In this document: piece after piece, positions 18,217-33,890 of the stretch
Layout of the letters: every line of letters begins with the position of its first letter
How positions within the stretch are numbered: position 1 is the stretch's first letter
DNA from: Paludibacteraceae bacterium
GTDB taxonomy: Bacteria; Bacteroidota; Bacteroidia; Bacteroidales; Paludibacteraceae
Direction: 5' to 3'
Length of the DNA stretch: 44,845 nt
Assembly: GCA_017417025.1 (NCBI GenBank)
Contig: JAFPZY010000032.1
Location: forward strand, 1 to 44,845
The notes under the pieces: generated by a model
Told to the model about the DNA's origin: nothing
The model's database searches: none
The model's input: only the letters and a program-made list of their open reading frames with translations
Position numbers and translations under genes: made by a program

Positions 18217-18699
18217 TTATTTTGTTACAAATGTCTTGATTACTTTAGCGGGAGAGCCGACGGCGACTGTGTACGGGGGGATGTCGCGGGTGACAACACT
18301 GCCGGCACCTATTACCGCTCCCTCGCCAATAGTGACACCTGGCATAATAATGCTGCCAATGCCTATATGAGCACCGTCTTTTATATGTATAGGCTTGTAT
18401 ATCAGCTCACAATCCATCACCGGCTTGCCTACTTCATACTGCGACAAATCGCGCTGGTGACACAGCAGCATGCAGCCGCGCGTGACCCACACATTGCGCC
18501 CGACAGTAATCAGTTCCGGGGCGGAATGGTCTATGTCCACGGTCGCCGCAATCTTTGAGCCTTTCCCTATTTTCATGCCCGTAAGTTTATACAAGGGCGT
18601 GCGCACTTGCGCCGGAAACAGATGCCGCGCCAATGACAGACAGAGGCGGTTGAAGATTCCGCGCGTCACATTGCCTATTGTCCGATGATTGTTTGCCAT
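18217..18699 (-). CDS. Left-handed beta-helix acetyltransferase
   Basis: A 160-residue hexapeptide-repeat acyltransferase. Repeat turns run from about residue 42 to 150 (for example IGKGSKIAATVDID, IKDGAHIGIGSIIMPGVTIGEGAVIGAGSVVT), ending with DIPPYTVAVGSPAKVI, typical of WbbJ/maltose-O-acetyltransferase relatives. It probably O- or N-acetylates a sugar using acetyl-CoA. It lies in a tight group with a nucleotidyltransferase-like gene, DUF354 and wecB. The acceptor is unknown. Confidence 0.85.
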   Translation of the reverse strand: MANNHRTIGNVTRGIFNRLCLSLARHLFPAQVRTPLYKLTGMKIGKGSKIAATVDIDHSAPELITVGRNVWVTRGCMLLCHQRDLSQYEVGKPVMDCELIYKPIHIKDGAHIGIGSIIMPGVTIGEGAVIGAGSVVTRDIPPYTVAVGSPAKVIKTFVTK

Positions 18700-18724: not shown

Positions 18725-19900
18725 TTAATATGGTATTACCCCCTCTCTGCGTATTATGCGGCGGACACCTTTGAAGACAATGGTGCAGAACATGTGCCAG
18801 GCATAAGAGGGAGCATAGGGCCACACATCGCGGGCATCCTTCGTCCTGCCGAAAAAAGTGTATAACTTCCTGTAAACCACATTCCAACTGCCATGCAAAC
18901 GCCGTGACTCTTCCTCCGACATCGCGCGGGCGACAGGCTCGCGGCTCAACAAATAAGCAAGAAAACGAGCGCCATGACGCTGCGTCCAACGGGAATCATC
19001 ATACAGCGGCCACTCTTCCGCCTTCAGACCGAGGCTGCCGACCGCCAGATAGCCAAACAGCCGCCACGGCTGCATAAGCCCCATTTTGCGAAGAACAGGC
19101 CGCAGATAAGCCTCCAGCGGCTGCCTCCCCATACGCCCGACCACAGCATGCACCAGCAGGACGACATCACAAATCTGCTTCATTCCTCCTGTCTCCGTAA
19201 CACAATGGTCCCAAGCATGATAGAAAGTGAATAGCACATTGAAACGGTCCTCAGGGACGGCAATCTCCATGTCCTCGGCTATCACCTTGCGCGCGGACTG
19301 CGGAGTGACAGCCGCGTCCTCAAGCGGGAAATAGGTGCGTATATCGCGCGGGTGGTCAAGTTTGACGGAGGTGCGGTGCATCTCCACCAAAGCCCCCTCG
19401 GGGAGGGTGAAATTGTAGTGCTTGAGTTCCTCCAGTTCGTCCTCGTGGTGCCCGGCATCGGGAAACGCGTCCCGCAGCAAAGCCGCAGCCTTATGATACT
19501 GCGAAGGCCCCACATACACATCCAGATCTCCCCACACACGCAGATAGGGCTGCGGATAAAGCACTGACAAGCCGAACCCCTTGAGGCAGACGGGGAATAC
19601 GCCGCCCTGCTCCAGTGCTGACCACGTGCGGCGGAGGACAGACAGCAGTTTCTGCTGCTCAAGCATATTGGACATGCAGATTTGCTTCAGCTGAAGTTTC
19701 TGTTTGTCTGTCAGACGTGACATGAGCAAAGGCTGCTTGAGCATCTGGTTGAAGACCAGCGGAGCCGTCCCCTGCCGCAAAGAAAGGGCTATAACGTCCG
19801 ACAAATCCTCCGGCAGCACGTCAGGAAGAACAGGCTCAGAGCCCCATATTGCAGCACGCAACAGGGAGAAATAAAGAGTCTGCGAGATGTTCTTTTCCAT
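18725..19900 (-). CDS. PF14907-type nucleotidyltransferase family protein
   Basis: A 391-residue protein resembling the uncharacterised nucleotidyltransferase family NTP_transf_5. The key segment is LKGFGLSVLYPQPYLRVWGDLDVYV (quoted in part: LKGFGLSVLYPQ, then GDLDVYV with Asp125 and Asp127 as the expected metal ligands). Members occur in polysaccharide and peptide-modification clusters; their reaction is unknown. The frame is open up to 20173, but the upstream part crosses the promoter and has no family likeness, so the ATG at 19900 is used. It is the first gene of the unit running to sfp. Confidence 0.8.
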   Translation of the reverse strand: MEKNISQTLYFSLLRAAIWGSEPVLPDVLPEDLSDVIALSLRQGTAPLVFNQMLKQPLLMSRLTDKQKLQLKQICMSNMLEQQKLLSVLRRTWSALEQGGVFPVCLKGFGLSVLYPQPYLRVWGDLDVYVGPSQYHKAAALLRDAFPDAGHHEDELEELKHYNFTLPEGALVEMHRTSVKLDHPRDIRTYFPLEDAAVTPQSARKVIAEDMEIAVPEDRFNVLFTFYHAWDHCVTETGGMKQICDVVLLVHAVVGRMGRQPLEAYLRPVLRKMGLMQPWRLFGYLAVGSLGLKAEEWPLYDDSRWTQRHGARFLAYLLSREPVARAMSEEESRRLHGSWNVVYRKLYTFFGRTKDARDVWPYAPSYAWHMFCTIVFKGVRRIIRREGVIPY

Positions 19901-19931
19901 GTCCTTTTTGCCAATTATATCTAAATCGCGG

Positions 19932-19963
19932 CAAAGATAATACTTTTTCTGCAAATATGCAAA
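19932..19963 (-). promoter_or_regulatory. Promoter of the 19900-12846 unit
   Basis: Minus strand: TTTG (19960-19963), 20 nt, TATCTTTG (19932-19939), a perfect consensus match 31 bp before the ATG at 19900. No other consensus promoter was found before 12846, so all seven genes may share it. Confidence 0.82.
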
Positions 19964-20007
19964 TAAAAAACACAAAATCAGTGTTCTCACAGGGAGAGAC
20001 CCGCTGC

Positions 20008-20029
20008 CGATAGTGTCTCGATAGTGTCT
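20008..20029. repeat. 11-bp tandem repeat, two units
   Basis: CGATAGTGTCT is repeated twice head to tail (20008-20018, 20019-20029) and followed by CGTCAGTCTGA. The period and the CGnTAGTGTnn pattern match the module at 33061-33102. It lies between the arginase stop and the promoter at 19932-19963. The surrounding 130 bp hold no gene. Confidence 0.65.
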
Positions 20030-20096
20030 CGTCAGTCTGATTTGCCCATATAGGGGGAGACTAGACCGGATAAATTCAAGAATCCAACAGGCACTT

Positions 20097-20990
20097 TCAC
20101 GGGCACCGCAAGAGCGAGACGAGGCGCGAAAGGGTGCTGACACACCAGTGCGCCGTTGTTTGCGCCTCATCATCCATTAGCGGATTGTACTCGACAAAGT
20201 CGAAAGAGCGCATTGACGGCAGTGACGGCAGCGCGGCAATAAAGTCATCCAAATGGCTCTGTGTAAGGCCCTGAGGCACTCTGGTGCCCGTTGCTGCGAC
20301 AACAGACGGGTCCATGCCGTCGATGTCGAAACTCAGATGAAGCGAAGAGAGTTTTAGCTCCTCCATCTGCCTGCGTATATTCTGCATCACCGCCGCCATG
20401 CCGTGCTCACGGACAAAGGCGGATGAATAAACGTGGTCGCTGATATTGAGAGAGTTAATAATCTGTTTTTCTCCATCGTCGAGGTCGCGTGCGCCGACCC
20501 AGAATACATTCTCCGGTTTGAGCCTGACCGTGGCGATGTCGTTCAGCCCTGAGGCACACAGCCCCATCAGTGCCGCAAGCGGCATGCCGTGCGCATTGGC
20601 TGACGGAGAGGACTTCTCGGTGTTGATGTCGCCGTGCGCGTCAAACCAGACGACTGCGACATCCTCTGTGCGCTGCAGTATGCCGGCTATGCTGCCAAGA
20701 GCGATGGAGTGGTCGCCGCCAATGACGACCAACGGCCTGTCATTTTGCATCTCTTCCGCGACTGTATCACGCAGCAAACGGCTCATTTCCAGCACCGTAT
20801 CATAGTTTTTCACCTGCTGTTTTTGCTCGTCTGTCAGCGGCAGCATCTCAGAGTTGAAGTGCAGGAACCGCCAGTCAGACTTGTCAAGTCCGAGCATTTC
20901 GCACAATATTCCCGGTGCAAGTTGCGCCCCTTCGCGGTTGCACCCCGACCGGAAAGGCAAACCTATGTATTTTGGAGTCGTCATAAACAT
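20097..20990 (-). CDS. Arginase (ureohydrolase family)
   Basis: A 297-residue enzyme expected to cut arginine into ornithine and urea. The dinuclear manganese ligands are visible: GGDHS (His94), WFDAHGDINT (Asp117, His119, Asp121) and SFDIDGMDPS (Asp222, Asp224). NAHGMPLA (His134) and DFVEYNP (glutamate equivalent to Glu277 of human arginase) favour arginase over formimidoylglutamase or agmatinase. It lies 21 bp after hipA and seems to share its transcript. A second ATG at 20984 is possible. Its product, ornithine, is the expected substrate of the opine-synthase-like enzyme 1.5 kb upstream. Confidence 0.82.
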   Translation of the reverse strand: MFMTTPKYIGLPFRSGCNREGAQLAPGILCEMLGLDKSDWRFLHFNSEMLPLTDEQKQQVKNYDTVLEMSRLLRDTVAEEMQNDRPLVVIGGDHSIALGSIAGILQRTEDVAVVWFDAHGDINTEKSSPSANAHGMPLAALMGLCASGLNDIATVRLKPENVFWVGARDLDDGEKQIINSLNISDHVYSSAFVREHGMAAVMQNIRRQMEELKLSSLHLSFDIDGMDPSVVAATGTRVPQGLTQSHLDDFIAALPSLPSMRSFDFVEYNPLMDDEAQTTAHWCVSTLSRLVSLLRCP

Positions 20991-21011: not shown

Positions 21012-22103
21012 CTACTGAAAACATGAAATCTGATGTTCCATGTCATCGTATATTCTTTTTGTCTCATTATCAGGGAGTCCGACTTCTGCCGCCAAAGCAA
21101 GGACATCTGCACGCGATGGCAGCGGATTGTCATTGACAGAAGTGGTATGGCAATCCCCCTTCATGCCACAAGGGAGCAGGTCGTATGCAGGTGAAAAAGC
21201 CCAACCTTTATTATAAATAAAGGCAAAGTTTTTAGCATGGTCGTCATGGTTGCCGATTAGGACATTGAAACACATTAGACGATAAATCTTCCACAAATCC
21301 TCCATCGAATGTGACAGTTTGGTAGACAACTGAAAGAGGTGGAAGTAATCAATACTCGGAATTGTATAATCGGCTTGCAACAAACCAGCCGCACTGACCA
21401 CGTGTAGTCTGTTATCCCCCTGTCTGTCAAAGCGTTTAACGCCGAACCATTTATTTTCGAACAGCCGTGTTTCGGGCATCTCAATGCCGCATTGTTTAGC
21501 CAATAGGGAATAGCGGTACTCCTCACGCCCAATGTCTTTTCTGTCACCTTTGGCGCGGAATTTGACAAGCCATTCACCATCGTCTTGTGTAATAAAGATT
21601 TTAGGTCGTGCCCCGCCAGGAGAACCGCCGCGCTGAACAAGTTCCTCTATATGTTCACCCGTATAAGTATCATCTGATAAGACTGCCTCCATTTCAGCCG
21701 CAAGCTTCTCAAGACGCAGATATTCAAATGAATATCTTACACTCTCATCGGGGCGATACTCCAATGCCCCACGCCCGTTGCTCCCCACAAGGCATAGTTG
21801 CTGCAATATTGTCAGATTAGAACTGTTGATACCCTGCTGCGCAAAATAACGATGCAAAACGAGCCTGCCCCACCCGTCCGGCAGGCTATCCGCGAACACG
21901 CCGAAATTGCCGTCAAAGGGGTGATAATGAGCGACTTTTACGCCTTGCGTCAATGGCAATTCAAACGGCGAAATACTGAAGCCGTTCTGCAGCCAGTCTG
22001 TAGAATATTCAAACGCACAAGTCTGCGGTCTGGATGGTGTGAGAGCAAGTCTTCCAACCAGCCGGCCATGCATCCGGACCTCTATCTGCTGAATATTAAT
22101 CAT
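21012..22103 (-). CDS. HipA-like serine/threonine kinase toxin
   Basis: A 363-residue kinase of the HipA family. The N-terminal domain includes the segment FDGNFGVFADSLPDGWGR, the glycine-rich nucleotide loop is GGSPGGARPKIFI (about residues 157-170), and the catalytic core has GNHDDHAKNFAF followed by PAYDLLP. HipA kinases inactivate glutamyl-tRNA synthetase by phosphorylation in E. coli. Here the N- and C-terminal parts are fused, unlike split HipST forms. It overlaps the preceding HTH gene by 8 nt, as expected for an antitoxin-toxin operon. All key kinase motifs look intact. Confidence 0.88.
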   Translation of the reverse strand: MINIQQIEVRMHGRLVGRLALTPSRPQTCAFEYSTDWLQNGFSISPFELPLTQGVKVAHYHPFDGNFGVFADSLPDGWGRLVLHRYFAQQGINSSNLTILQQLCLVGSNGRGALEYRPDESVRYSFEYLRLEKLAAEMEAVLSDDTYTGEHIEELVQRGGSPGGARPKIFITQDDGEWLVKFRAKGDRKDIGREEYRYSLLAKQCGIEMPETRLFENKWFGVKRFDRQGDNRLHVVSAAGLLQADYTIPSIDYFHLFQLSTKLSHSMEDLWKIYRLMCFNVLIGNHDDHAKNFAFIYNKGWAFSPAYDLLPCGMKGDCHTTSVNDNPLPSRADVLALAAEVGLPDNETKRIYDDMEHQISCFQ

Positions 22104-22395
22104 TTCTTACGCGTTGCTTGGTAGTTGTGCTTTGCAACATATCATCCAGTGTCGCCCATTGCCGCTGTGTAAAAACATTCCTGAAATCCTCCAAACAGCC
22201 CAAGACAAAAGCAACCTGCAGCAATCCGCGCAGCGATATTTGCCCTTTCTGCTCAAAATGCCGGTAGGTGGAGAGCGGGAGATCCGCCTTTTTCGCCAAA
22301 TCCGCCTGTGTTATACGCTGCTCCAAGCGACGCTGTTTGACCCGTGCCGCCATGTCATTAGCGACAGAAAACGGGGTTGTCAGGATATTTTTCAT
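22096..22395 (-). CDS. HipB-like XRE-family regulator (antitoxin)
   Basis: A 99-residue DNA-binding protein with a helix-turn-helix of the XRE type: RRLEQRITQADLAKKADLPLSTYRHFEQKG (quoted in part: ITQADLAKKADLPLSTYRHF). The frame opens at a GTG at 22401, but the ATG at 22395 is the natural start. It precedes the HipA-like kinase with an 8-nt overlap and would neutralise it and repress the operon. Two 19-bp direct repeats lie just upstream of its promoter and could be its operators. Confidence 0.85.
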   Translation of the reverse strand: MKNILTTPFSVANDMAARVKQRRLEQRITQADLAKKADLPLSTYRHFEQKGQISLRGLLQVAFVLGCLEDFRNVFTQRQWATLDDMLQSTTTKQRVRND

Positions 22396-22416
22396 AAACA
22401 CATTCTATTTCCGCGA

Positions 22417-22448
22417 CAAAGGTAATACTTTTGCGGAACATGCGCAAG
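22417..22448 (-). promoter_or_regulatory. Promoter of the hipBA-arginase operon
   Basis: Minus strand: CTTG (22445-22448, one mismatch to TTTG), 20 nt, TACCTTTG (22417-22424). It lies 21 bp before the hipB-like ATG at 22395. Its upstream edge touches the first of two direct repeats. Confidence 0.7.
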
Positions 22449-22506
22449 GATAAGTGACAATATTTTGTTAATTATGCACAAAAAAGCGGATAAGTAACAA
22501 TATTTT
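22448..22506. repeat. Pair of 19-bp direct repeats, candidate operators
   Basis: GGATAAGTGACAATATTTT at 22448-22466 and GGATAAGTAACAATATTTT at 22488-22506 differ at one base and start 40 bp apart, close to four helical turns. They lie immediately upstream of the hipBA promoter and 29 bp after the end of the next gene. Regulator-binding sites for the HipB-like protein are a natural guess, although known HipB sites are palindromic. Confidence 0.7.
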
Positions 22507-22534
22507 AGTAGTTATTGATTTCTGCCCACAACTC

Positions 22535-23491
22535 CTACTTCCTGTTTTGAAAACTATTTATTCTGTCGTCTATTATTTTGCCGTTGTGTATATTGACTGC
22601 CCGCTTTAATGTGTCACCCAAATCTCCCTCTACTATCTCATCCAAGAAACGAACAACTTCCTGACTTATTGCTTCCGATGTCGATTTATAGAACAATGAC
22701 GGAGTATGATCCACAACATAATGGGTAATACCATCAACCTGATATACAGGATTCTCTATTGTTGTCGGGATACTTGTTTCCACACCGCCATGACGGTCAC
22801 AACTCAAGTCTATAATAAGCGCTCCTTTCTTCATACGCTTAAGATCTTCCCTGTATACAATATGGTCTTTACGAGAGGTATCCCATAAGATTGCATTGAT
22901 TACGACATCATATCTGCCTATTTCCTTGCGAAACAGTTGTTCCATTTTACGGTCATACACAACAACCTCCGCCCCCATATAGTTCAATGTGCGAATTGCA
23001 CCGCGAGCAGTATTGCCACGACCTAACACAGCCACTTTTGTCTGATTCGGAAACACACCATGCAAAAGATAAGCATGACACAGAGCTGCTTCTCCTGCTA
23101 TTTCATTGTTTTTCCAGAACGTATGCCGCCCCATTTCATACATGTCTTCCCATGCGATGCCTGTAAGCCGGTTGTTTATTATTTTATCCGTTATATCACG
23201 ATTCTGCACGGCATGAATCCACCCGAAAATAACTTGGTCGTGCAACGAATCCAAATAATCAGCATCACCTATTTTAGGATCACAAATAACATTTTTCTTT
23301 AACACTTCCTCACGCGGACAGACATGAATACCCGCCTGACGATAATCATCATCAGTATAATTAAGCACATCGCCATAACCCTGTTCGACGTAAAGACATT
23401 CCGTGTGTTTTACTTGCAACACATGTGGCGGAATGATTGCCCGACGACGTTCATTTTCCTTGTGACTGATAGGGAAACCTATTGTATTCAT
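22535..23491 (-). CDS. N5-(carboxyethyl)ornithine synthase-like dehydrogenase
   Basis: A 318-residue member of the alanine dehydrogenase/CEOS family. It starts MNTIGFPISHKENERRRAI, the hallmark of that subfamily, and has a Rossmann motif VAVLGRGNTARGAIRTL near residue 160 and IIDLSCDRHGGVETS in the second half. Characterised CEOS condenses ornithine with pyruvate using NADPH to form an opine-type amino acid; an alanine or lysine-type dehydrogenase activity is also possible. The open frame begins at GTG 23512, but the ATG at 23491 matches the family. It has its own promoter and lies between the arginase operon and the polysaccharide operon. Confidence 0.78.
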   Translation of the reverse strand: MNTIGFPISHKENERRRAIIPPHVLQVKHTECLYVEQGYGDVLNYTDDDYRQAGIHVCPREEVLKKNVICDPKIGDADYLDSLHDQVIFGWIHAVQNRDITDKIINNRLTGIAWEDMYEMGRHTFWKNNEIAGEAALCHAYLLHGVFPNQTKVAVLGRGNTARGAIRTLNYMGAEVVVYDRKMEQLFRKEIGRYDVVINAILWDTSRKDHIVYREDLKRMKKGALIIDLSCDRHGGVETSIPTTIENPVYQVDGITHYVVDHTPSLFYKSTSEAISQEVVRFLDEIVEGDLGDTLKRAVNIHNGKIIDDRINSFQNRK

Positions 23492-23551
23492 AGTTACACT
23501 CAATTTAGACACTCAACAGTAAATGTATCATTTACTATCGCAAATTCGCCG

Positions 23552-23583
23552 CAAAGATAACACAATTTGCTTAATTTGGCAAA
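23552..23583 (-). promoter_or_regulatory. Promoter of the CEOS-like gene
   Basis: Minus strand: TTTG (23580-23583), 20 nt, TATCTTTG (23552-23559), an exact consensus. It lies 60 bp before the ATG at 23491 and starts 29 bp after the SDR stop codon, so this gene is a separate transcription unit downstream of the polysaccharide operon. Confidence 0.82.
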
Positions 23584-23612
23584 CTTTTTAGAGAAAAATT
23601 TCTTGATTACTC

Positions 23613-24452
23613 TTATAAATTGTCTCCTCCGTCACAAAATATTATCTGACCAATAATAGAATTACCCCTGTTGTCAAGCAAGAACTGCACTAATTCTGCC
23701 ACTTCTTCAGGCAAAACAAATCTTTTAGAAGCTGTTTGGCTATTATATGCGTTTAATGTAATATCTGTTTCGTTTATTCCAATTGGCAACATTCCTACAC
23801 CTATTGCGTTTATATATATGCCATTAGCCATGTATTTTTTAGCAAGAGCCATAGTTATTCCATTAACTGTGTATTTTGAAAGATGATATGGTTTGGGCTC
23901 TAAAAGGGCTGAACTGCGGGATGATATATTGACTATCTTACCTTGGATATTATTATACTTAAAATACTCACACACAGCCTCTGACACAAAGAACAACGAC
24001 CTAACATTAAGATCAAATGTCTTATCAAAAATCTCTGTTGAATTACCACCTATATCATCTGCGCTATCACTCACAAAAGCAGCATTATTAATCCAAGCAT
24101 CTATCCTGTTTTGTGGAGTCTGTTCACAAATCTTTTTAAGATGCCCATTTATATCTGTGATATTATTCAAGTTCCAAACATAACCAAATAATCTATCAGA
24201 GTTTTCTTTTTCAAGAGCTTCATTTATGTGCTTCTCACTACTGCTAATCATAATTACAGTTGCACCAGAAGTCAATAGTCGATGTGTTATATATGAGCCT
24301 AATCCAACTGCTCCACCGGTCACAACACAAACCTTGTCTAATAACTCCTGATTTGCGGGTAACTGACTTATAGTTACAGTCATCACCCCACCTTTGTCTA
24401 AATATTTCAAAAAACGCAAAAGCGATATTATTTTACGTAAAATCTTTTTCAT
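23613..24452 (-). CDS. Short-chain dehydrogenase/reductase
   Basis: A 279-residue SDR enzyme. The NAD(P)-binding glycine motif is TGGAVGLGSYI (about residues 45-55), NNAAF follows, and the active-site set is Ser in NISSRSSA with YHLSK (Tyr and Lys). The C-terminus FCDGGDNL is standard. An N-terminal extension of about 35 basic and hydrophobic residues is unusual. The ATG overlaps the stop of the ATP-grasp gene (ATGA). It probably oxidises or reduces a sugar or acyl intermediate of the surface glycan; substrate unknown. It is the last gene of the polysaccharide operon. Confidence 0.87.
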   Translation of the reverse strand: MKKILRKIISLLRFLKYLDKGGVMTVTISQLPANQELLDKVCVVTGGAVGLGSYITHRLLTSGATVIMISSSEKHINEALEKENSDRLFGYVWNLNNITDINGHLKKICEQTPQNRIDAWINNAAFVSDSADDIGGNSTEIFDKTFDLNVRSLFFVSEAVCEYFKYNNIQGKIVNISSRSSALLEPKPYHLSKYTVNGITMALAKKYMANGIYINAIGVGMLPIGINETDITLNAYNSQTASKRFVLPEEVAELVQFLLDNRGNSIIGQIIFCDGGDNL

Positions 24453-25540
24453 TTCCTATCTATTTTTTGTTTTGCAATATATTGAAGCACTTCATCTGTT
24501 ATATCACCTAAAGCAGGGCTGCCTGCTACCTGAACAGAACCTCCCCACGACAGATTTGTTTCAATTATCAGAGGCTCGTCATCTGCATTCAAGGTTACAT
24601 CCCAAGCCACCAATTTTGACACTTGACTCACTCTAAAAGCCATTGCCTTGACCAGATCAATACATTTATGATAGTTGGGAAGTTGGCAATCTGCAAACAC
24701 CTGTCCGTTGGGGTGTTGTTTATACATTGTTAAATTACCATCAAAAGCCAGTTCTCTTAATCTACCATCAGACATAATACCACAGACTAATCCTCCACGA
24801 TGCAAATGATTGGTTAAAGCTTCTTTGCCACCCATAATGACCACCTGTGAAACAACATGCACTTCCCCTTGAAACAGAAGTGTTACTATTCTCATTGTAT
24901 TCACACAAGTAGCATTAAACTGACTTAATGATTTACTTTGCTCTACAAAATCCTGCACTACAAATGAACGCGGTATTTGCAAAATGGATTTTAATACTTC
25001 TTCTTTTTCTATTTTACCATTCCAAACTGATATTCCGGCACCAGCACAAGTACCTAATGAGGGTTTTAGAATAATCTTACCAGCCTGTTTACAAGCTGTC
25101 ATTGCCTGTTCCAAAGAGATTACTTTATATTGATTATCCAATAACACATCTCCAATACGGCGACATATAGTTTTAGGCTGTGGCGCATCATTTAACAACA
25201 AGTCGTACAAGTTCTTGTCATCTAAGGCTTGTGCTGCAACAGCATTATTGAAAAATCTATCCACAACGCAATAGTAATAACTATCAGGTACAAAATGTGT
25301 TAAGTTTGAACCAAAAACATTGACCTTATTATATATATCATACCATCTTATGTCCCAGCTATAGCGTGCCAAACAACTATTAAGATATGGCTGCCAATAT
25401 GCAATTATTTCCGATTTCTGCTCGTTTGATATCGGACTACCATTTGCCAATCCTTTCAACAAGTCGCGCCTGCCATCTTTGTATCTACCAGATACTTTTT
25501 CCGGGTCTAAAAGCCGATGTAATTTCTTAAGAACATTCAT
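24449..25540 (-). CDS. Sugar-transfer-associated ATP-grasp protein
   Basis: A 363-residue ATP-grasp enzyme of the family seen in capsule loci (ATPgrasp_ST). The ATP-binding lysine lies in KIILKPSLGTCAGAG (about residue 174 on), followed by FVVQDFVEQSKSL, NTMRIVTLL, and the metal-binding C-terminal IIETNLSWGGSVQV. Such enzymes are expected to form an amide or similar bond between a carboxylate and an amine, here probably on a polysaccharide or its precursor; this is inference. It is a diverged paralogue of the frameshifted ATP-grasp gene directly upstream (58 bp away) and looks intact. Confidence 0.8.
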   Translation of the reverse strand: MNVLKKLHRLLDPEKVSGRYKDGRRDLLKGLANGSPISNEQKSEIIAYWQPYLNSCLARYSWDIRWYDIYNKVNVFGSNLTHFVPDSYYYCVVDRFFNNAVAAQALDDKNLYDLLLNDAPQPKTICRRIGDVLLDNQYKVISLEQAMTACKQAGKIILKPSLGTCAGAGISVWNGKIEKEEVLKSILQIPRSFVVQDFVEQSKSLSQFNATCVNTMRIVTLLFQGEVHVVSQVVIMGGKEALTNHLHRGGLVCGIMSDGRLRELAFDGNLTMYKQHPNGQVFADCQLPNYHKCIDLVKAMAFRVSQVSKLVAWDVTLNADDEPLIIETNLSWGGSVQVAGSPALGDITDEVLQYIAKQKIDRK

Positions 25541-25598
25541 ATATTAAGAAATTTAGATTAATTATATTAGTTAGTAAAGGATAAATCACAAATCATAG

Positions 25599-26716
25599 TC
25601 AGTAGTTGACATGTTTAAGCAATGCTTTTTTCAAGCCCCCATTAGTTTCTTGATTTATAGACACTTCCATATTATCATTACCTTCAATAAACATAGGTCC
25701 TTGAGGAGTAATAGCAATATCCCACCCTATGACCACAATGTTGTGCAAATGTTTATGCAGGTCACAGGCTTGTTGCAGAGCTTCTTGGAAGAATGGCAAA
25801 TCATAACCATCAAACTCAACTAAAGTGTCGGGGTGGCAAGTCACTTTGGTACCAAAGCCGTGTTTGTAAAAACCATATTTATGAAGTTTGCCAGTAGCCA
25901 TATCAATACCTATAGCAAGACCACCTTGCGCCCAGTTGTCAACCACATTACCATGGGCACCAACACGCAACACCGCTGACAGTGGTACTGCCTGCTGTTG
26001 CTCAGCGTCATAGACTGTGATAAGCCGAAGAGTGTTTATGGACTTATCATACAATCTACTAATTTGGTCATGCTGAATGACTAAAGTCTGAACTAAATAA
26101 TTTTCTTGTTTCAGAATCTTTACCAAAAACGATTGTGCTTCATCACTACTCAATTTTTCATTATTTATGATGCAGCCATCGTTTTCTACTCTTATCTTAA
26201 ATATGCCCCTGCCACACTGACCCGCGAATGGTTTCGCAAAATACCCCCCCCCCCCGTATTCGCCACCATATCCGCAGCGAAAGATTCTATTACAGATGAG
26301 GTTTTCCCCCCGGTGCTAAACAAGATTTGTGGTGTTGTAAAATGCCAAAGAGACAGCAATTGGGCAAACAGCGATTTGTCACGAAGGATGCAAGTATAAT
26401 CCTGCTCTGCAAGCATAGTGTTTCTCACAGACATCTTCCAAAGAAACTCATTATCATCAAAAAAGTCGGTTTGATTACGGAAGTCCTTTATATCAAAGCC
26501 ATAGGAAAAATAGTGCCACTCAATAGAGCCATAACGGAATATATGCAACAGCAATTCAAAAAATATGCGCAATCTCGACTTTTGCTTCATCTCTGGATAA
26601 TAAGATGGTGATAACCAAAAACGAGAAGCAAACAACTTGAATGGCAACGTGATACGCCTTTTCATTACAGACAGACCACGCAAAAGGACAATAGACTTAT
26701 AATACTTTGCATTCAT
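25599..26716 (-). CDS. Phase-variable ATP-grasp protein, split by a 12-G run (OFF as read)
   Basis: Two open frames form one gene: 26192-26716 (ATG start, 174 codons) and a second reaching 25599. The break is at a run of 12 G on the minus strand (26244-26255). As read, translation passes four glycines (155-158) and stops 16 codons later. With 10 or 13 G the frame continues as YFAKPFAGQCGRGIFKIRVE into the second part, giving about 371-372 residues, close to the 363 of its paralogue. YFAKPFAGQCGRG aligns with the ATP-binding LKPSLGTCAGAG of that paralogue, so the OFF form lacks ATP binding and all later motifs (NTLRLITVY, GWDIAITPQG, FIEGNDN). A homopolymer sequencing error is the alternative. 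Confidence 0.82.
26244..26255 (-). repeat. 12-nt poly-G tract (contingency locus)
   Basis: Twelve consecutive C on the + strand, G on the coding strand, within the ATP-grasp gene. The frame is restored when the length is 3n+1 (10 or 13 G). It is the longest G/C homopolymer noticed in the window. Confidence 0.9.
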
Positions 26717-26723
26717 AAATTAT

Positions 26724-28121
26724 TTATTTATATTCATACTCGCTGACACAATAGTCCTCCTTGCCAGATGGCATTGTGGGGATGGAGTCCACAAACTCCA
26801 AAGAAACTTTGGAACCGACAAAGTGGTTTTCAAAATTGGTGACACAATAAGCAAACTGTTCCTGCGGTTCCGCCGGATTCTTGAGTTTGAGCAATATGCG
26901 GATGTCGCCTTCCTTGTCCTGACGTATCTGGAAACGGTCAATCTTGTTATATATTACGCAGTTCGCCTCATTATGATAATCATTATCCCTATATAACATA
27001 ATAGGCAACATTGTAGGTGAAATTGGGACACCCTGTTTATTATACAGAAGTTTGCCTGCACGCCCGATTACCTGCCCTAACAAACGCGACTGCCTGCCGC
27101 AGGGACATTTGTCCTGCTTTATATACGCCATATCACCAACTGTATAGCGTATAAACGGAAAGACGTAATTGCCTAAATCTGTCGCCAAGACATGACCTAT
27201 TTGCCCGTCCGGAAGGACATGACCATCTTTGTCTGCTATTTCCAAAACACAGCGTTCTTCGGCAATATGCATGCCGTCGTGTAGCGGACATTCGTGTGCA
27301 TCCAAGCCACCATCACCACAGCCGTATTCATCCATAACACGACACTTGAAAACGCGCTCAAGAGTCTCGCGATATTCGGGCATAAGAATCTCGCCTGTGG
27401 TCATCACCAACCTAACAGGACAAACAGGCAACTTGTTCTTCTCAATATAGCGTGCAAAGATGACAAGAGATGACCCATAGCCACGCACACCTTTCGGCTT
27501 GTATTTCATAAACGCCTCATAATGAGCCTGCATAGCAGCATCGTCCACCTCTGCACTGCTGCGTTTCATATTGCGCATGAGAACAACATCAAAGATGTCT
27601 TTTGCCGTCCAAAGTTTGCGCTTGTTCACAAGCGAATTACCGCCCAAAGTGAAAAGACGCTCACCAACATGAAAGCCCGACCACTCCCAAGCGCGGAAAG
27701 ATGAAGCCCACTGCATATTCCAGGTCGGAATGTCTTTCATAAACTTCAGCGGCGTGCCTGTACTGCCCCCTGTGCTGCCTTTTTGATAATGGCGTTTGTT
27801 TGCATCAAGGCTGATGAGGTCATTATAATTATCACGCACCATCTGCTTTGTAAGAACCGGAAGTTTCTGAAGGTCCTCACGGCATTGTATGTCCGCAGGC
27901 TTGAGATTCAATCGGTTAAACAACTTTGTGTAATAAGGTACATTGTCGTAACAATGCTGTATCAAGGCTTGCAGCCGCTGGTTCTGCACATTGCGGAGCT
28001 GCTGCTCGGTTGCCATGTCAAGACGTGTCATAAAACGCCATTCACGACTCAAGCCGCGATGCATGACAAGGTCTGCAAGAGGCATTAGAAAATATTTATC
28101 AACAAATGGATATAAAAGCAT
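26724..28121 (-). CDS. CapK/PaaK-like adenylate-forming enzyme
   Basis: A 465-residue protein related to phenylacetate-CoA ligase and the capsule protein CapK. It has the glycine-rich phosphate loop KGSTGGSTGTPLKF near residue 115, MDEYGCGDGGLDAHEC in the adenylate region, HVLATDLGNYVFPFIRYTVGD and CPCGRQSRLLGQVIGR, where cysteines may bind a structural metal. CapK-like genes accompany ATP-grasp enzymes in capsule loci and are thought to activate a carboxylic acid for attachment to a glycan (inference). It ends 8 bp before the phase-variable ATP-grasp gene, so the two are probably functionally linked. Confidence 0.87.
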   Translation of the reverse strand: MLLYPFVDKYFLMPLADLVMHRGLSREWRFMTRLDMATEQQLRNVQNQRLQALIQHCYDNVPYYTKLFNRLNLKPADIQCREDLQKLPVLTKQMVRDNYNDLISLDANKRHYQKGSTGGSTGTPLKFMKDIPTWNMQWASSFRAWEWSGFHVGERLFTLGGNSLVNKRKLWTAKDIFDVVLMRNMKRSSAEVDDAAMQAHYEAFMKYKPKGVRGYGSSLVIFARYIEKNKLPVCPVRLVMTTGEILMPEYRETLERVFKCRVMDEYGCGDGGLDAHECPLHDGMHIAEERCVLEIADKDGHVLPDGQIGHVLATDLGNYVFPFIRYTVGDMAYIKQDKCPCGRQSRLLGQVIGRAGKLLYNKQGVPISPTMLPIMLYRDNDYHNEANCVIYNKIDRFQIRQDKEGDIRILLKLKNPAEPQEQFAYCVTNFENHFVGSKVSLEFVDSIPTMPSGKEDYCVSEYEYK

Positions 28122-28183
28122 AATGATTACTATTATTTAAGAGACCTTTGATAGATTCCGCAACAGGCAGCAAAATTTGCAAT

Positions 28184-29191
28184 CTAAATATTTCGGAGAG
28201 ATTGTCCATACCAGTTAATAATTTTTTTAGCGGTGAGGCCTATTGTCAAGCCATCAGCAAGAATGCGGTCGCGACCTTTAGTCCGTTGCCCGAAAGCCAA
28301 TGCACGGCTAAGACATTCAGCAAGGACCGCGGCATTTTCCTCTGCATAAAGGGTATGAGTGTGGGGATTGGTGACTGGATGAGGAGTCTTTGCCACAAAA
28401 CAGCCTTCCAGATTTTCCAACCGTTCATTCACATCTCCGACATCAGTAGTTACAATCGGACAATTACATGCCATCGCCTCTTTGATGACATTGGGGCTAC
28501 CCTCCGACCAAGAGGTAAGCAACAGACAATCAGCAGCATTCATATACAGAGCCACTTCCTGCGGAGTCTTGTTATAAACAGGAACTAACTGAATGTCTGC
28601 ATGTGAGGGCAATTTTGAGTTCAGATGCTGTATTGCCAACCGCGCCAACGGCCAGTTTTTTTCAAGGCGCTCAGGATTAGAACACCAAACCACATACTTT
28701 TTACCAGACTCAAAGCCAACCTCCTTACGTGAATTTTGATAGTCCTGCGGATAAAAGATGTCTAGATTAACGCCATTCGGGATAACCGGCAAAGCAATAC
28801 CAAGTTGGTCTGATGTGCGCTTTGATTTTGTAAGAGTCGCATCCCATAAATGCCGTATGCCCCAGCGGACACGCCTCCATTTGGCACTATGAGTCGGGAA
28901 ACTGCCAAGAATAGAAACCACTATCTTAGGACGATGAAACATGAACAATGTTGCCAACGAAGCCACAAAACCGCAAGTTGAATATTGGGCATGAACAATA
29001 TCAGGCCTTTCACGCCTTACCAACTCCCGCACCTTAAATATTGCGCGTGCATAGGCAAGCCACCCGTGACCCACTACAGGAAAAAGCATCATATCAAGCC
29101 CTTCTCCCTGCAAAGACTCATATTGCGAGCGGACAAAAGAACTTACGGTGCCCACCTTTTTGTTACCTGATGCTATAAAGAGGACTTTCAT
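28184..29191 (-). CDS. GT4-family glycosyltransferase
   Basis: A 335-residue GT-B glycosyltransferase. N-terminal features are MKVLFIASGNKKVGTVSSFV and DIVHAQYSTCGFVAS; the C-terminal nucleotide-sugar domain has the motif SWSEGSPNVIKEAMACNCPI, with the two glutamates of the EX7E motif, followed by VTTDVGDV. It should add a sugar to the lipid-linked repeat unit on the cytoplasmic side of the membrane. Donor and acceptor are unknown. It overlaps the preceding glycosyltransferase gene by 4 nt. Confidence 0.9.
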   Translation of the reverse strand: MKVLFIASGNKKVGTVSSFVRSQYESLQGEGLDMMLFPVVGHGWLAYARAIFKVRELVRRERPDIVHAQYSTCGFVASLATLFMFHRPKIVVSILGSFPTHSAKWRRVRWGIRHLWDATLTKSKRTSDQLGIALPVIPNGVNLDIFYPQDYQNSRKEVGFESGKKYVVWCSNPERLEKNWPLARLAIQHLNSKLPSHADIQLVPVYNKTPQEVALYMNAADCLLLTSWSEGSPNVIKEAMACNCPIVTTDVGDVNERLENLEGCFVAKTPHPVTNPHTHTLYAEENAAVLAECLSRALAFGQRTKGRDRILADGLTIGLTAKKIINWYGQSLRNI

Positions 29192-30336
29192 CTTTTTATA
29201 CTATTATAAATCTGCTCCAATTGCCGAATATGGTTTTCGATGGAGAACTTTGCACGAACCTCTTTGGCAATTTTCTCGCATCGCAAATGCACTTTGTCAG
29301 GATGCTTCCGCAGGTCATCAATCAAAGCGGCCATTTTGTCCGCACAATCTTCAGCATCATTAGAGCGGTACAATGTTGCCCAAGCACCGTCATTAGTAAT
29401 CTCGCGCATCACTTCCCAGTCATTGACAATGACCGGCAAGCCTGCAGCCATAGCCTCCACGACTGCGATACCAAAAGTGTCATTTTCAGTACTATAGACA
29501 AAACCATCCATTGTCTTCAAAATAGCAGGGACATCCCCTCTTCCACCCAAGAAATGCACATTGACCCGCTCTGTCTGCCGAACTGAATTCTCATCATCAT
29601 ATACATCAAAACCCAAAATCCCTCTTTTAGCACAAAATTCCACACACTCATTATATCTCTTACTCTCTTTTTCTACTTTTCTTCCAATAAAATAAAAATT
29701 CAACGATTCCACCAAACTGTCTTTTATTTTTGATAAAGCTGAACATATTATCAGCGGTGTTCTGCCAGATTGAAAATTTCCAACAGTACATAGTCTAAAT
29801 CCATCTTCTGAAACACATGACGGACGAAGCATTTTATTATTTAACTTTTGGAAATCAATCCCATTATAAACGACACAGAGGTTATTAATTCCGACTCCTA
29901 ACAATCTCCGTTTATAATAAGATGCAACCTCTTGACTAACACATATCAACTTTTTACTAAATAAATTAATAATTTGTAAAGAGAAAAAACTTAATGAATC
30001 AAAATGACCATGAAATGTTGTAACAAGTGAAGCACGTGTACCAATGGACGCAAAAATGCCAATTATCGCATTAGATGGAGTTTGAGCATGCAAAATATCT
30101 ATTTCCTCTGATTTTATAAGATTTCGAAGTTGCCATATATATTTAAATACACTTGACTGACGGGGAAGTTTCACCAAACGAGCATTTGTTCTTTTATAAG
30201 CTTCCGAATAACTACCTTCTTTTCGATAAATACACAATGCATCTAATGAAGTCATTTGACAATTATTCAATACGTCCAAAACAAGAGATTCCGTACCACC
30301 TATATTCAATGCTCCTAAAAAGAAAGCTACTTTCAT
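29188..30336 (-). CDS. GT4/GT1-family glycosyltransferase
   Basis: A 382-residue GT-B glycosyltransferase. N-terminal GALNIGGTESLVLDVL is the typical glycine-rich start, HAQTPSNAIIGIFA and FHGHFDSL follow, and the C-terminal part has STENDTFGIAVVEAMAAGLP, with the EX7E-type motif, followed by VIVNDWEV. It lacks a signal peptide and should work at the inner membrane in repeat-unit assembly. The middle part (about 29600-30100) is very AT-rich compared with the first 400 bp of the minus-strand 3' end, which hints at mosaic origin. Confidence 0.9.
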   Translation of the reverse strand: MKVAFFLGALNIGGTESLVLDVLNNCQMTSLDALCIYRKEGSYSEAYKRTNARLVKLPRQSSVFKYIWQLRNLIKSEEIDILHAQTPSNAIIGIFASIGTRASLVTTFHGHFDSLSFFSLQIINLFSKKLICVSQEVASYYKRRLLGVGINNLCVVYNGIDFQKLNNKMLRPSCVSEDGFRLCTVGNFQSGRTPLIICSALSKIKDSLVESLNFYFIGRKVEKESKRYNECVEFCAKRGILGFDVYDDENSVRQTERVNVHFLGGRGDVPAILKTMDGFVYSTENDTFGIAVVEAMAAGLPVIVNDWEVMREITNDGAWATLYRSNDAEDCADKMAALIDDLRKHPDKVHLRCEKIAKEVRAKFSIENHIRQLEQIYNSIKR

Positions 30337-30352
30337 AAATCTCTCTCAAAAA

Positions 30353-31369
30353 TTAAATATTATCATAATAATAACCTACTTTTAGTTTCTTGACAAAATC
30401 ATCCACTCGTAATACATTGCCATTATATTTAAAAAAGTCTTCTCCGGAGACGAACTCAAAATGATCAACATCATAAATTATTTTGCCTCCGACATGATTG
30501 ACCTCACATTGATGAGCTGCCCAGCAGCCAAACAAGGATTGCATTTCTGTTACATAATAATCGCCATGCTTATCTATAAGGACATCCAAAGATAAAGAAT
30601 CAAACTTCTCCTTTTCCGAAATTTCTTTTATTAATTGTAATAACTCGATTGGTGGCATACCGTATTCCATTTTTTCACAACTACCATGTCCATTTTCCAG
30701 AGGTCGCATATAACCCGCATAAGTATCGCCAAGTTTTATTATTCTCCACTCTGTTAAAATATCTACATATTCCTGAATTATTACATAATGCCTCTGGCTC
30801 ATCCCAAATTTCGGAACAGGAAAAAAGCCTGCAACTTTCGTCCATGGCAAATGCCCAAATGCCAAACGTGAATGAAAACGCCCAAAAATTGAATTGACTA
30901 TTTGTTGTGCTTTTCTTTGGAAATGCACCACAGTTACTCCTGTTCCAGAAGAACCTCCATTTGTTTTAAATACAATTGGATATGATGTATGTTTACAAAA
31001 GTCCAATGCTTTTCTCTTTGAATAAAAAACATGAGTTTTAGGCGTTCTAACCCCATGTGTTTCAAAAAAGTACGAATACATGCGCTTATTCTCGTACAAA
31101 AATAATTCATGCCATGAAGGATAAATCGGAATATGTAAGTATTTGTTTATTACCCAAAGACGTTCATTATACATTTCCTTATATTCAGCAATATTGGCTT
31201 TTTCCCGAACCAAAACTCCATCGACCTTAGATGTCCGTATCTGTTCAATCCAATCATCTGAAAATAAATCTAATATCACATATTCAACTCCACATGTTTC
31301 ACAAGCATGTGCATAACTTTCAACCAAATCATCTATTTCAGGATAACTTTTTAAAATTCCTAATTTCAT
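30353..31369 (-). CDS. ATP-grasp domain protein in polysaccharide operon
   Basis: A 338-residue ATP-grasp protein, more like RimK/D-Ala-D-Ala ligase-type enzymes than the two downstream paralogues. It has IVFKTNGGSSGTGVTVV (ATP-binding lysine and glycine loop, about residues 131-147), IIQEYVDILTEWRIIKLGD, and SLDVLIDKHGDYYVTEMQSLFG, where EMQ replaces the usual ExN metal-binding end. It probably ligates a carboxylate to an amino group in glycan decoration. No substrate can be assigned. It follows the membrane GT gene by 19 bp. Confidence 0.78.
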   Translation of the reverse strand: MKLGILKSYPEIDDLVESYAHACETCGVEYVILDLFSDDWIEQIRTSKVDGVLVREKANIAEYKEMYNERLWVINKYLHIPIYPSWHELFLYENKRMYSYFFETHGVRTPKTHVFYSKRKALDFCKHTSYPIVFKTNGGSSGTGVTVVHFQRKAQQIVNSIFGRFHSRLAFGHLPWTKVAGFFPVPKFGMSQRHYVIIQEYVDILTEWRIIKLGDTYAGYMRPLENGHGSCEKMEYGMPPIELLQLIKEISEKEKFDSLSLDVLIDKHGDYYVTEMQSLFGCWAAHQCEVNHVGGKIIYDVDHFEFVSGEDFFKYNGNVLRVDDFVKKLKVGYYYDNI

Positions 31370-31388
31370 ATCTTTTAACTTAATTTGT

Positions 31389-32831
31389 TTATTCTATCAT
31401 GCCACGGCCGGCGAGTTTGAACCAGGCCCAGACTACCCAGGCGACCAACATAAGCACATTCCAGTATGTGAACCAGCGGCGGAAACGCAGCCGGGTGCAT
31501 CGGGCGACTCCATAAGCGGCAAACAACAGCTCAATGACATACGCCGGCAGGTGGAAACGGTCGGCATGTATGAAAGCAGACTGCACCAATACAAGCAAAT
31601 ACGCAATCAGGAACGCACCAATCAGGATATTGTTGCGCCAACCAGTGTCAGGGTCTTGATTTATAAGGAGGAGGACTATTGCAAGAATACAGAAAAAGGA
31701 CATTATATTCTTTGCCACATAACCCGCATGCTGGAGTCGGTGGTTCTCCTGATTAGGGGTCTCAACCATAGTGGGAAAAGGTATTGTGAAAATCATAGGA
31801 GCGAGAACACCCTTTGTTGCATATTGAGCAAATGATTGGGTGCGTTTAATTTCTGTCATTCGGTTACTTTGGTTAGAGTCACGCAGATTCCAATAGCGGT
31901 CTATCTCGCTGGCGATACGTCCGCCGAGGAAGAGGCTGGAGCCGGCAAGAAAGACGATGAGCAAGAACCAGCGCCTGCCGAGGTTGGCGACACGCTTACT
32001 TGACAAGACAAGTGCCATAGCCATGGCTCCTACGGCAGTAGCCCCCAAGACGGTGCGGAAAGTGAAGAGAGAGAGGGCAAGCAGAAAGACGGGAGCCACA
32101 TCCCAAAAGCGGAATTCACGGGAGCGGAGCAGGTTGTCGGCACGCTCAAGGAAAAGGACGAGCATAAAAATCATCTCTGTCTCTTTGAGGTGCATGCCGC
32201 TGTAGATGATAAAGTGCGGCTCAAGCATGAGGAAGACGCCCGCCATGCGTCCGACATGCTCGCCGAAGTTGCGGCTGCCGAGCCTGTAAAGCAGGACACA
32301 TGTAAAAGAACTCCAGAGAGCCTTGAGGAGACGGGCTGCTATAATACTGTCGCCCGTGAGCCAATAAACAAAGCCGAGATACATGGGATAGCCGGCATCA
32401 GAGACACCATTGGAGAGGACAAACTTGTAGTCCCAATAGACGCTGAAACGCCCCTCGCGGATACAATCAGCCATCCACTTGGCTTCCTCACCATACTCGA
32501 AAGCGTCCGCCGCCTGAAACATGAAGGGGCGGCCGGTCATAGTATCGAAAAACCAGTAGAGGAAAAAGACAGCTATGACACGAATGACCAGAGCTGTGGA
32601 GAAAAGGCTTTTCTCAAAGCGACGGACACCAAAGCCAAGCCATGTTCTGGTGTAATAATTGATGCCGTAAAAAAAGCCGAAAACCCCGACAATACCAAAG
32701 AGCCACCAATACCAGTGCATGGCATATTCACTGAACATGAAACTGACCACCAGCAAGGCAATAATATAGACAACCACCGGTGTTTGAGTGAATTTGTCAA
32801 GATAATATAGGTTCTGATATTCAGGTGTCAT
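31389..32831 (-). CDS. Multi-spanning GT-C-like membrane protein
   Basis: A 480-residue membrane protein with about 11-12 hydrophobic helices. An early loop has AADAFEYGEEAKWMADC, matching the aspartate-containing first loop of GT39/ArnT-type (GT-C) transferases, and a helical middle part follows. It is either a lipid-linked sugar transferase or a polymerase-like protein. The open frame runs upstream to 33335, but that part crosses tandem repeats and the promoter, so the ATG at 32831 is used. Leader is only about 8 nt. It is the first gene of the operon. Confidence 0.8.
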   Translation of the reverse strand: MTPEYQNLYYLDKFTQTPVVVYIIALLVVSFMFSEYAMHWYWWLFGIVGVFGFFYGINYYTRTWLGFGVRRFEKSLFSTALVIRVIAVFFLYWFFDTMTGRPFMFQAADAFEYGEEAKWMADCIREGRFSVYWDYKFVLSNGVSDAGYPMYLGFVYWLTGDSIIAARLLKALWSSFTCVLLYRLGSRNFGEHVGRMAGVFLMLEPHFIIYSGMHLKETEMIFMLVLFLERADNLLRSREFRFWDVAPVFLLALSLFTFRTVLGATAVGAMAMALVLSSKRVANLGRRWFLLIVFLAGSSLFLGGRIASEIDRYWNLRDSNQSNRMTEIKRTQSFAQYATKGVLAPMIFTIPFPTMVETPNQENHRLQHAGYVAKNIMSFFCILAIVLLLINQDPDTGWRNNILIGAFLIAYLLVLVQSAFIHADRFHLPAYVIELLFAAYGVARCTRLRFRRWFTYWNVLMLVAWVVWAWFKLAGRGMIE

Positions 32832-32844
32832 AAAAAACAGCCTG

Positions 32845-32876
32845 CAAAGATACGGAAAAAAAACGAATGTGACAAA
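32845..32876 (-). promoter_or_regulatory. Promoter of the polysaccharide operon
   Basis: Minus strand: TTTG (32873-32876), 20 nt, TATCTTTG (32845-32852), an exact consensus. It lies 13 bp from the ATG at 32831, giving a nearly leaderless mRNA. No flanking inverted repeats were seen, so it is not an invertible promoter of the Bacteroides capsule type. Confidence 0.82.
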
Positions 32877-32918
32877 TAAAAAACGACAAATATAAAAAAA
32901 AGTATTGAGGAACATAAA

Positions 32919-33036
32919 AAAGACAACAAAAAGAACATAAAAAAGAGAGCACAAAAAGACATAAAGAAGGACACAAGAAGACATAAAGGAGGACACAAGA
33001 AGACATAAAGAAGGACACAAAAAAAACATAAAAGGG
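32919..33036. repeat. 22-bp tandem repeats
   Basis: Units of the type GAAGGACACAAGAAGACATAAA recur with a 22-bp period (GACAT at 32958, 32980, 33002), with degenerate copies on both sides. It is purine-rich on the + strand and lies just upstream of the polysaccharide promoter. The minus-strand reading frames across it code only low-complexity Phe/Leu/Cys/Ser sequence and are not credible genes. Confidence 0.8.
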
Positions 33037-33060
33037 GCATGGTTTTGATACGGCGTGAGA

Positions 33061-33102
33061 CGGTAGTGATACGGTAGTGTGACGGTAGAAAGCAGCGCGG
33101 AA
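33061..33102 (+). repeat. 11-bp tandem repeat module, copy B
   Basis: CGGTAG recurs at 33061, 33072 and 33083 (period 11) and the last unit continues as CGGTAGAAAGCAGCGCGGAA, a variant of the GGTAGAAACAAGCGGAA end found in copies A and C. Same strand orientation as copy C. Confidence 0.7.
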
Positions 33103-33120
33103 AAAGACAACAGTCTGCGA

Positions 33121-33263
33121 AGTTCTGCGAGAGTATTAAGAGTACTGCGAGAGGCTGAGAGTACTGCGAGAGTATTGAGAGTACTGCGAAAGTATTGAGA
33201 GTACTGCGAAAGTATTGAGAGTACTGCGAGAGTATTGAGAGCACTGCGAGAGGCTGAGAGGGG
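33121..33263. repeat. 20-bp tandem repeats
   Basis: CTGCGA recurs at 33125, 33145, 33164, 33184, 33204, 33224 and 33244, so seven units of about 20 bp (GAGTACTGCGAGAGTATTGA type) stand in a row. The last unit switches to AGAGGCTGAGAG. It has no CRISPR character: repeats are contiguous with no unique spacers. Confidence 0.88.
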
Positions 33264-33312
33264 ACTACTAATGTACTGCACAAGAACTGAGAGAGGCTGC
33301 GAGGGGCTGTGA

Positions 33313-33341
33313 GGGTACTGCGAGGGTAGAAACAAGCGGAA
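33313..33341 (+). repeat. 11-bp repeat module, copy C
   Basis: GGGTACTGCGA is followed by GGGTAGAAACAAGCGGAA. The 17-nt GGTAGAAACAAGCGGAA (33325-33341) is identical to the reverse complement of 12725-12741. It stands at the end of the 20-bp array, which may be a variant of the same repeat. Confidence 0.78.
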
Positions 33342-33454
33342 AGGAGGCCGTATATATTTTTATAAAATAAAAATAGTGGCAGCAGGGAGAGTTTCGCTGG
33401 CAGAGACTGGGGGCACAGGCAGAGATGTGGGGTGGCGCTGATGGGGATAATATT

Positions 33455-33644
33455 GCAGACGAGCAGACTGAGCTCCTGATGGCACGCAAGTTGTACTCTT
33501 TTGCGGGGAAAAAGAATAAAAAATCCGAGCAGGTGCAGAATACTTGGCAGACGAGCAGACTGAGCTCCTGATGGCACGCAAGCTGTGCTCTTTTGCGGGG
33601 AAAAAGAATAAAAAATCCGAGCAGGTGCAGAATACTTGGCAGAC
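33455..33644. repeat. 92-bp tandem duplication
   Basis: A unit beginning GCAGACGAGCAGACTGAGCT starts at 33455 and again at 33547, with a third partial start at 33639. The two full copies differ at only a few bases. It is noncoding; frames read across it are repeats of each other. It lies between the 11-bp modules and the promoter at 33811. Confidence 0.88.
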
Positions 33645-33810
33645 GAGCAGGCGGCGACAACGACGACATGCGGATGATGATTTTCGCGGGAAGAAAAAGC
33701 GAGTTTGGGGAAAAATGAAAAAATGAGCGAAAAGACGGAGGCAAAAGGCAACTCAAAATGAGACAATTATGAAAAGGCGGCAAAAAAATTGAAGAAAAAA
33801 GAGGAAAAAA

Positions 33811-33842
33811 TTTGGAAAAAGCGGTTTTTTGCATTATCTTTG
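33811..33842 (+). promoter_or_regulatory. Promoter of the TraB/GumN-like gene
   Basis: Plus strand: TTTG (33811-33814), 20 nt, TATCTTTG (33835-33842), an exact consensus. The expected start site is near 33849. This rules out the upstream ATG at 33789 as the gene start. Confidence 0.8.
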
Positions 33843-33890
33843 CATGTGAAAAAAGAAAGAGGAGACAACAAGGGGGAGAACTATAGCAAA

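Follow-up and report, generated by a model that had tools for sequence, protein, structure and literature searches.

The window (the whole stretch of DNA analysed, 44,845 bases) is contig 3 of a 2.18-Mb draft genome in 64 contigs (G000) from an uncultured gut bacterium, and carries on its minus strand an ATP-grasp ligase gene in two parts, separated by a homopolymer of 12 G at 26244-26255 (the plus strand reads 12 C), the proposed slippage tract. The upstream part, corresponding to the N-terminal region of the ligase (26192-26716, minus strand), encodes 174 amino acids as assembled (P0001), of which 153 precede the tract; the frame reads through the run and meets a stop 49 nt beyond it. The downstream part (25599-26243, minus strand; 214 amino acids, P0002) encodes the ATP-grasp catalytic portion, starts with YFAKPFAGQCGRG, contains no stop across its 214 codons and matches positions 64-274 of the 278 in the ATPgrasp_ST profile (PF14397) with an E-value of 2e-49 and 168.7 bits (cut-off 31.4). 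The two coding parts sit in different frames, and the length of the tract sets the frame. The frame split, as claimed in the original prediction, is directly supported by the letters and the translated frames, and the accompanying frame arithmetic, by which 10 or 13 G would give an uninterrupted protein, is correct. The exact length of 12 is that of one draft assembly.

The tract is the only G/C run of at least 8 in the window, and its five overlapping 8-mers were reached in none of 100 dinucleotide shuffles. The locus has a copy number of one in its own assembly, and a search of that assembly for a second haplotype of the locus found none. Since drafts were used throughout and homopolymer lengths in assemblies are error-prone, this copy may be out of frame only in the assembly, even with a genuine tract.

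Conserved residues of the ATPgrasp_ST family

An alignment of 73 members, consisting of 72 sequences hand-picked from 91 candidate ORFs and one Clostridia gene, and headed by the intact ligase of the Bacteroidales MAG RUG454 (G108), was examined for residues conserved throughout the family. K114, K156, N255, D327 and E339 (numbering of the intact G108 protein) are invariant in it. According to this sequence alignment, the tract codes for G150-G152 and three residues separate it from K156, which bears out the earlier placement of the run just before the ATP-binding lysine. As K156, N255, D327 and E339 all lie downstream of the tract, an out-of-frame tract loses every invariant residue except K114. 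A search of solved structures by sequence, with the ligase as query, returned nothing better than an E-value of 0.13.

Gene neighbourhood of the ligase

All the neighbouring genes described here lie on the minus strand. Directly upstream of the split gene is a gene for a CapK/PaaK-like adenylate-forming ligase (26724-28121; family match to PaaK), referred to here as CapK-like. This gene is syntenic in the relatives, where it adjoins the ligase gene in G108 and is separated from it by two genes in the Paludibacteraceae MAG G094, with 79% and 72% identity respectively. In the latter genome a DarTG-like pair (L015:3792-5494), consisting of DarT and a protein with a macro domain, is encoded in the interval that separates the CapK-like gene from the ligase gene with the tract. 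Further upstream are two genes for GT4-like glycosyltransferases (28184-29191 and 29188-30336) and one for a third ATP-grasp-like protein without a tract (30353-31369), which shows weak family matches under the curated cut-offs. Upstream of the operon, short repeated segments (SQYFRSTLNTLAVLS-like in translation) are present within long open frames at 31389-33766 of the window.

On the other side of the split gene lies a second ATPgrasp_ST gene without a tract (24449-25540; 363 amino acids; PF14397, E-value 1e-32). The original prediction had regarded it as an intact paralogue to which an uninterrupted ligase would correspond; it is indeed intact and a member of PF14397, but only a distant relative, with 25% identity over the matched stretch. 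It is followed by genes for a short-chain dehydrogenase (23613-24452), an alanine-dehydrogenase-like protein (22535-23512; 78% identity to the G108, G090 and G092 loci and 32% in G094), an arginase-family protein (20097-20990), an NTP_transf_5 protein (18725-20173), a hexapeptide transferase (18217-18699), a DUF354 protein (17187-18203), a UDP-GlcNAc 2-epimerase (16003-17190) and a protein with a FemAB-like match under the cut-off (15087-15971). Judged by these neighbours, namely the glycosyltransferases, the UDP-GlcNAc 2-epimerase, the PaaK-like ligase and the hexapeptide transferase, the cluster looks like a surface-polysaccharide locus. A decoration of the amide or amino-acid type is proposed because the enzymes of the cluster would activate or join amino-acid-like groups.

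An invertible promoter was also considered for this region and gained no clear support, no convincing inverted repeats being found at 22000-34500. Among the inverted repeats longer than 14 nt in a gapless search of that interval (arms within 1.5 kb), none was near-perfect; the search returned 11 inverted pairs of at least 14 nt, the two longest being 74% and 77% complementary, and the best (93%) measuring 14 nt.

The tract in relatives of the genus

A total of 30 matches to the PF14397 profile were identified in 19 of the 178 genomes of the genus, and 29 of these genes could be assessed, the remaining one (G090, a fourth member of the window's subfamily) being truncated where its contig stops, short of the site. 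Four of the 29 carry an intragenic G-run of at least 9, in each case directly before the lysine. Three of the four belong to the window's subfamily, these being the window's own gene with 12 G, out of frame, that of a Paludibacteraceae MAG from horse faeces (G094, locus L015) with 10 G, also out of frame, and that of RUG454 (G108, locus L016) with 9 G, in frame and encoding 370 amino acids. The fourth (G092) is a distant paralogue from a different clade, with 9 G directly before a KP motif and out of frame. The tract is present at the same codon in all three assessable members of the subfamily among the 178 genomes. The comparison of homologous loci that had been suggested with the original prediction supports a switch, with 12, 10 and 9 G at one codon, the first two lengths putting the gene out of frame and the third leaving it intact, and the persistence of the tract from species to species, in differing lengths and frames, is directly supported.

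The N-terminal part of the window's ligase shows 58% identity to the N-terminal parts of both G094 and G108, and its downstream part shows 62% identity to G094, 45% to G108 and 70% to the G090 fragment. Among the three ligases pS is 0.73-0.90, that is, saturated, and pN is 0.28-0.35 in the N- and C-terminal parts alike; purifying selection on the coding parts is directly supported. Both parts are open and conserved in the three subfamily members, as had been claimed for the second part, and a search of that part for additional disabling mutations in the same three members revealed none. GGG accounts for 12-18% of the glycine codons in these loci, yet the tract is pure G. With GGG a minority codon, protein constraint alone is insufficient to account for the purity of the run, which is explained by selection on the run itself or by its continual regeneration.

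The rough chance of finding at least four of 29 genes with such a run is ~2e-15 for a given 20-nt site and 2e-8 for a run anywhere in 1.1 kb, in an estimate that ignores relatedness and sets the genome size at 2.0 Mb; three of the four tract genes are orthologues and hence not independent gains. A search of a Bacteroidota sample for further subfamily members found none at an E-value of 1e-30 among its 394 other genomes. A run of 9 G near a PF14397 gene in another genome of the genus (G066, L061) was not counted, as it lies ~270 nt upstream of the gene start.

PF14397 genes outside the genus

The possibility that the tract is a property of ATPgrasp_ST genes in general was rejected on the basis of loci scanned outside the genus. 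Runs of at least 8 were absent from all 29 PF14397 loci scanned in other genera of the order (one has 7 G), these being drawn from 54 listed rows, five of them from the window's own genome, in a sample of 393 genomes. They were likewise absent from all 30 loci scanned in Clostridia relatives, drawn from 50 rows in a family sample of 197 genomes. Runs of 7 occur in a few of the scanned loci outside the genus. With none of 29 and none of 30 scanned loci carrying a run of at least 8, the tract is no family trait.

One Clostridia MAG (Lapin-016; L017, G568) carries 8 or 9 G in three such genes at other positions of the gene. One of the three clusters with the subfamily of the window at a support of 0.998 despite its run lying elsewhere, and a count by eye on the family tree gives three or more gains of a run. 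In this MAG the 3' end of contig C57 (L017:8198-8205) and the 5' start of contig C24 (L136) carry 8 G versus 9 G between identical flanks, a leading one of 24 nt and a trailing one of 13 nt, and the two ends may represent a single gene captured with two different run lengths. The pair is suggestive only, because the paralogue next door differs at a single one of those 37 flanking bases.

Abundance of G-runs in the genome, the genus and the order

The window's own genome contains five G/C runs of at least 9 as against ~6.1 expected from the first-order composition of the window scaled to the genome, by which 0.085 runs of at least 12 are expected per genome. The other four runs of at least 9 are found within a low-complexity repeat (two) and outside clear genes (two), as judged by ORFs only. 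An enrichment of G-runs across the genome as proof of a phasome was rejected, with five observed against about six expected.

Runs of at least 9 are present in 154 of the 178 genomes of the genus (609 runs, mean 3.4) and in 158 of the 198 genomes of the order sample. Stop-free stretches of at least 200 codons, on either strand, contain 20 of the 53 runs sampled in the genus (13/30 and 7/23), and the other 33 fall outside them. By abundance the tract is unremarkable; it is the conserved position in relatives that goes beyond chance.

High counts of runs of at least 9 G were observed in some other Bacteroidales (39 in 1.3 Mb in G269, 19 in 1.4 Mb in G371, 19 in 1.2 Mb in G268 and 42 in 4.8 Mb in G212), which possibly have larger switch repertoires. 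In addition, nine G followed by a TAA/TAAAT-like sequence occurs at L085, L092, L093, L175, L192 and L193 and on a contig of the window's own genome (C53:10511). This G9-TA element is recurrent in the genus and its flanks are partly shared, those of L192 and L193 ending in TTATTGATATATAGTAAGTT.

Other genes with tracts

The genome of RUG454 carries, on the same contig as its ligase gene and ~15.7 kb from it, two FdtA/WxcM-like genes in tandem (PF05523), which we take to be sugar ketoisomerases. The second copy has 14 G and is in frame (L176, G108:C29:70684, 1410-1835), and its counterpart in G014 has 10 G and is out of frame (L218, G014:C10, run at 1981); the first copy is without a tract in both genomes. 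Across 107 codons past the tract, the second copies of the two genomes have 90% protein identity, a pS of 0.79 and a pN of 0.07. Identity of 90% at saturated synonymous sites indicates that the out-of-frame FdtA-like copy is not decaying, and suggests that frameshifted states would be short-lived or reversible. The tract at this site is confined to G108 and G014 among the 30 FdtA loci scanned, which came from 55 rows in 41 genomes, rows without a locus being left out.

Tracts were also observed in restriction-modification genes. Two genomes, G027 and G032, carry a type IIG-like restriction-methyltransferase gene with 9 G, in frame (L100:990-3008, minus strand, and L103:3-2024, plus strand), the run occupying the same place in both, between the specificity domains, and the two loci covering the C-terminal part of the protein; from its sequence this gene is a candidate phase-variable restriction system. 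In G092 (L178:974-2072, minus strand) a run of 9 C joins two Methylase_S halves that lie in different frames of a type I specificity gene.

Proposed switch and its alternatives

The 12-G run is probably a slipped-strand contingency locus that toggles the decoration of a surface polysaccharide, a reading in which we have good confidence. We infer slippage as the cause, and its reversibility, from the sequence comparisons described above. Slipped-strand mispairing in replication would gain or lose Gs, and the gene would move between readable and frameshifted states, two of every three lengths abolishing the ligase. Out of frame, the protein would end before the invariant lysine and lack the ATP-grasp half to which the family profile matches; an in-frame tract would do no more than add a few glycines just before the lysine, and their number could change by one residue at a time. 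The switched product would be an ATPgrasp_ST ligase acting beside a CapK/PaaK-like activating enzyme, and as a likely consequence the cells of one clone or population would differ in an amide- or amino-acid-type decoration of the polysaccharide, both the reaction catalysed and the effect at the cell surface being predicted from the gene cluster.

The same split could have arisen in other ways. The gene may be intact in the cell and the length of the tract miscounted in the draft; the assembly consists of 64 contigs, and the available text of a study on Bifidobacterium G-tracts calls the assessment of tract length challenging (PMC9187656). An error of this kind is possible for the frame of one genome, but it leaves unexplained why three species, between which synonymous sites are saturated, have uninterrupted runs of G at one and the same codon, and why the FdtA-like gene shows the same pattern, and we consider it unlikely. 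A decaying pseudogene, in which neutral expansion of the run broke the gene and its loss is under way, would agree with the out-of-frame gene of the window and with runs of at least 9 being common by composition. Against it stand the absence of any other stop in 214 codons, values of pN well below pS in both parts, the intact G108 orthologue with the same tract and the out-of-frame FdtA-like copy that is 90% identical to the in-frame one at saturated synonymous sites, and decay is regarded as extremely improbable.

Programmed or leaky slippage, in which RNA polymerase or the ribosome would slip on the G-run and some full-length protein would be made in every cell, the effect being one of dose and not of on and off, draws on general properties of such sequences. 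Poly-A/T is described as slippery for RNA polymerases and ribosomes in the available part of one report (PMC3711429), and motifs prone to RNA polymerase slippage are mentioned in that of another (PMC9187656), both statements being about sequences other than this G-run. A programmed frameshift needs a constant offset, whereas the four copies in the genus differ in offset and that of G108 needs none, which makes this account very unlikely as a replacement for the slipped-strand switch; leakage and phase variation could coexist.

Beyond the single locus, there is about an even chance that slippage provides some gut Bacteroidales with a second switching system in addition to DNA inversion, in which repeated gains of poly-G in ATPgrasp_ST ligases, even across phyla, along with tracts in FdtA-like and restriction-modification genes, would give one line many surface states. 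Frameshifting G-tracts in draft genomes are easily mistaken for assembly errors or pseudogenes. If the proposed switch is real, some of the glycan genes that look 'broken' in the genomes of gut bacteria would be phase-variable, which would affect host recognition and the sensitivity to phages.

Comparison with known systems

Switching by intragenic poly-G tracts is classical in Campylobacter, and to our knowledge surface switching in Bacteroidales has been studied mainly through DNA inversion, which makes the present case one of interest. Poly-G switching itself is known; the Bacteroidales are an order in which little is known of it and in which it is seldom sought. Searches of the open-licence literature, in the parts accessible, brought up no account of phase variation by homopolymers in this order, which is no proof of absence. 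For Ornithobacterium hominis, another member of the Bacteroidota, putative phase variation of adhesin genes is reported, with the mechanism unnamed in the available text (PMC13183296).

The homopolymeric-G loci of Campylobacter, as far as the available portions of the sources go, resemble the tract of the window in being intragenic poly-G of ~8-11 in which the tract length sets the frame, as in cgtB, for which cells with 8 or 9 G are described (PMC6437147). The PhasomeIt catalogue includes, in the part available, an ATP-grasp domain protein of Campylobacter fetus with G(9-10) (PMC6321876), the likeness of which to the window's ligase is one of domain name. The window differs from these loci in belonging to the Bacteroidales, in the PF14397 ligase, in the position of the tract at the ATP-grasp lysine and in being known from assemblies. 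In Bifidobacterium breve, according to the available text, an intragenic G-tract of ~9-12 in a sortase-pilus locus joins or splits two ORFs via replication slippage (PMC9187656). This switch is likewise found in a gut commensal and is likewise intragenic, but it concerns pilus genes in another phylum and its variation was measured in culture and in mice, whereas the window presents a polysaccharide ligase and is known by its sequence.

In Bacteroides, phase variation of surface polysaccharides is described as proceeding through invertases, as stated in the available parts of two reports (PMC11868660, PMC12118408). Those systems share with the proposal made here a phase-variable surface polysaccharide in Bacteroidales. 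They differ in that inversion switches loci there, whereas in the window a single enzyme would be switched by the length of its tract.
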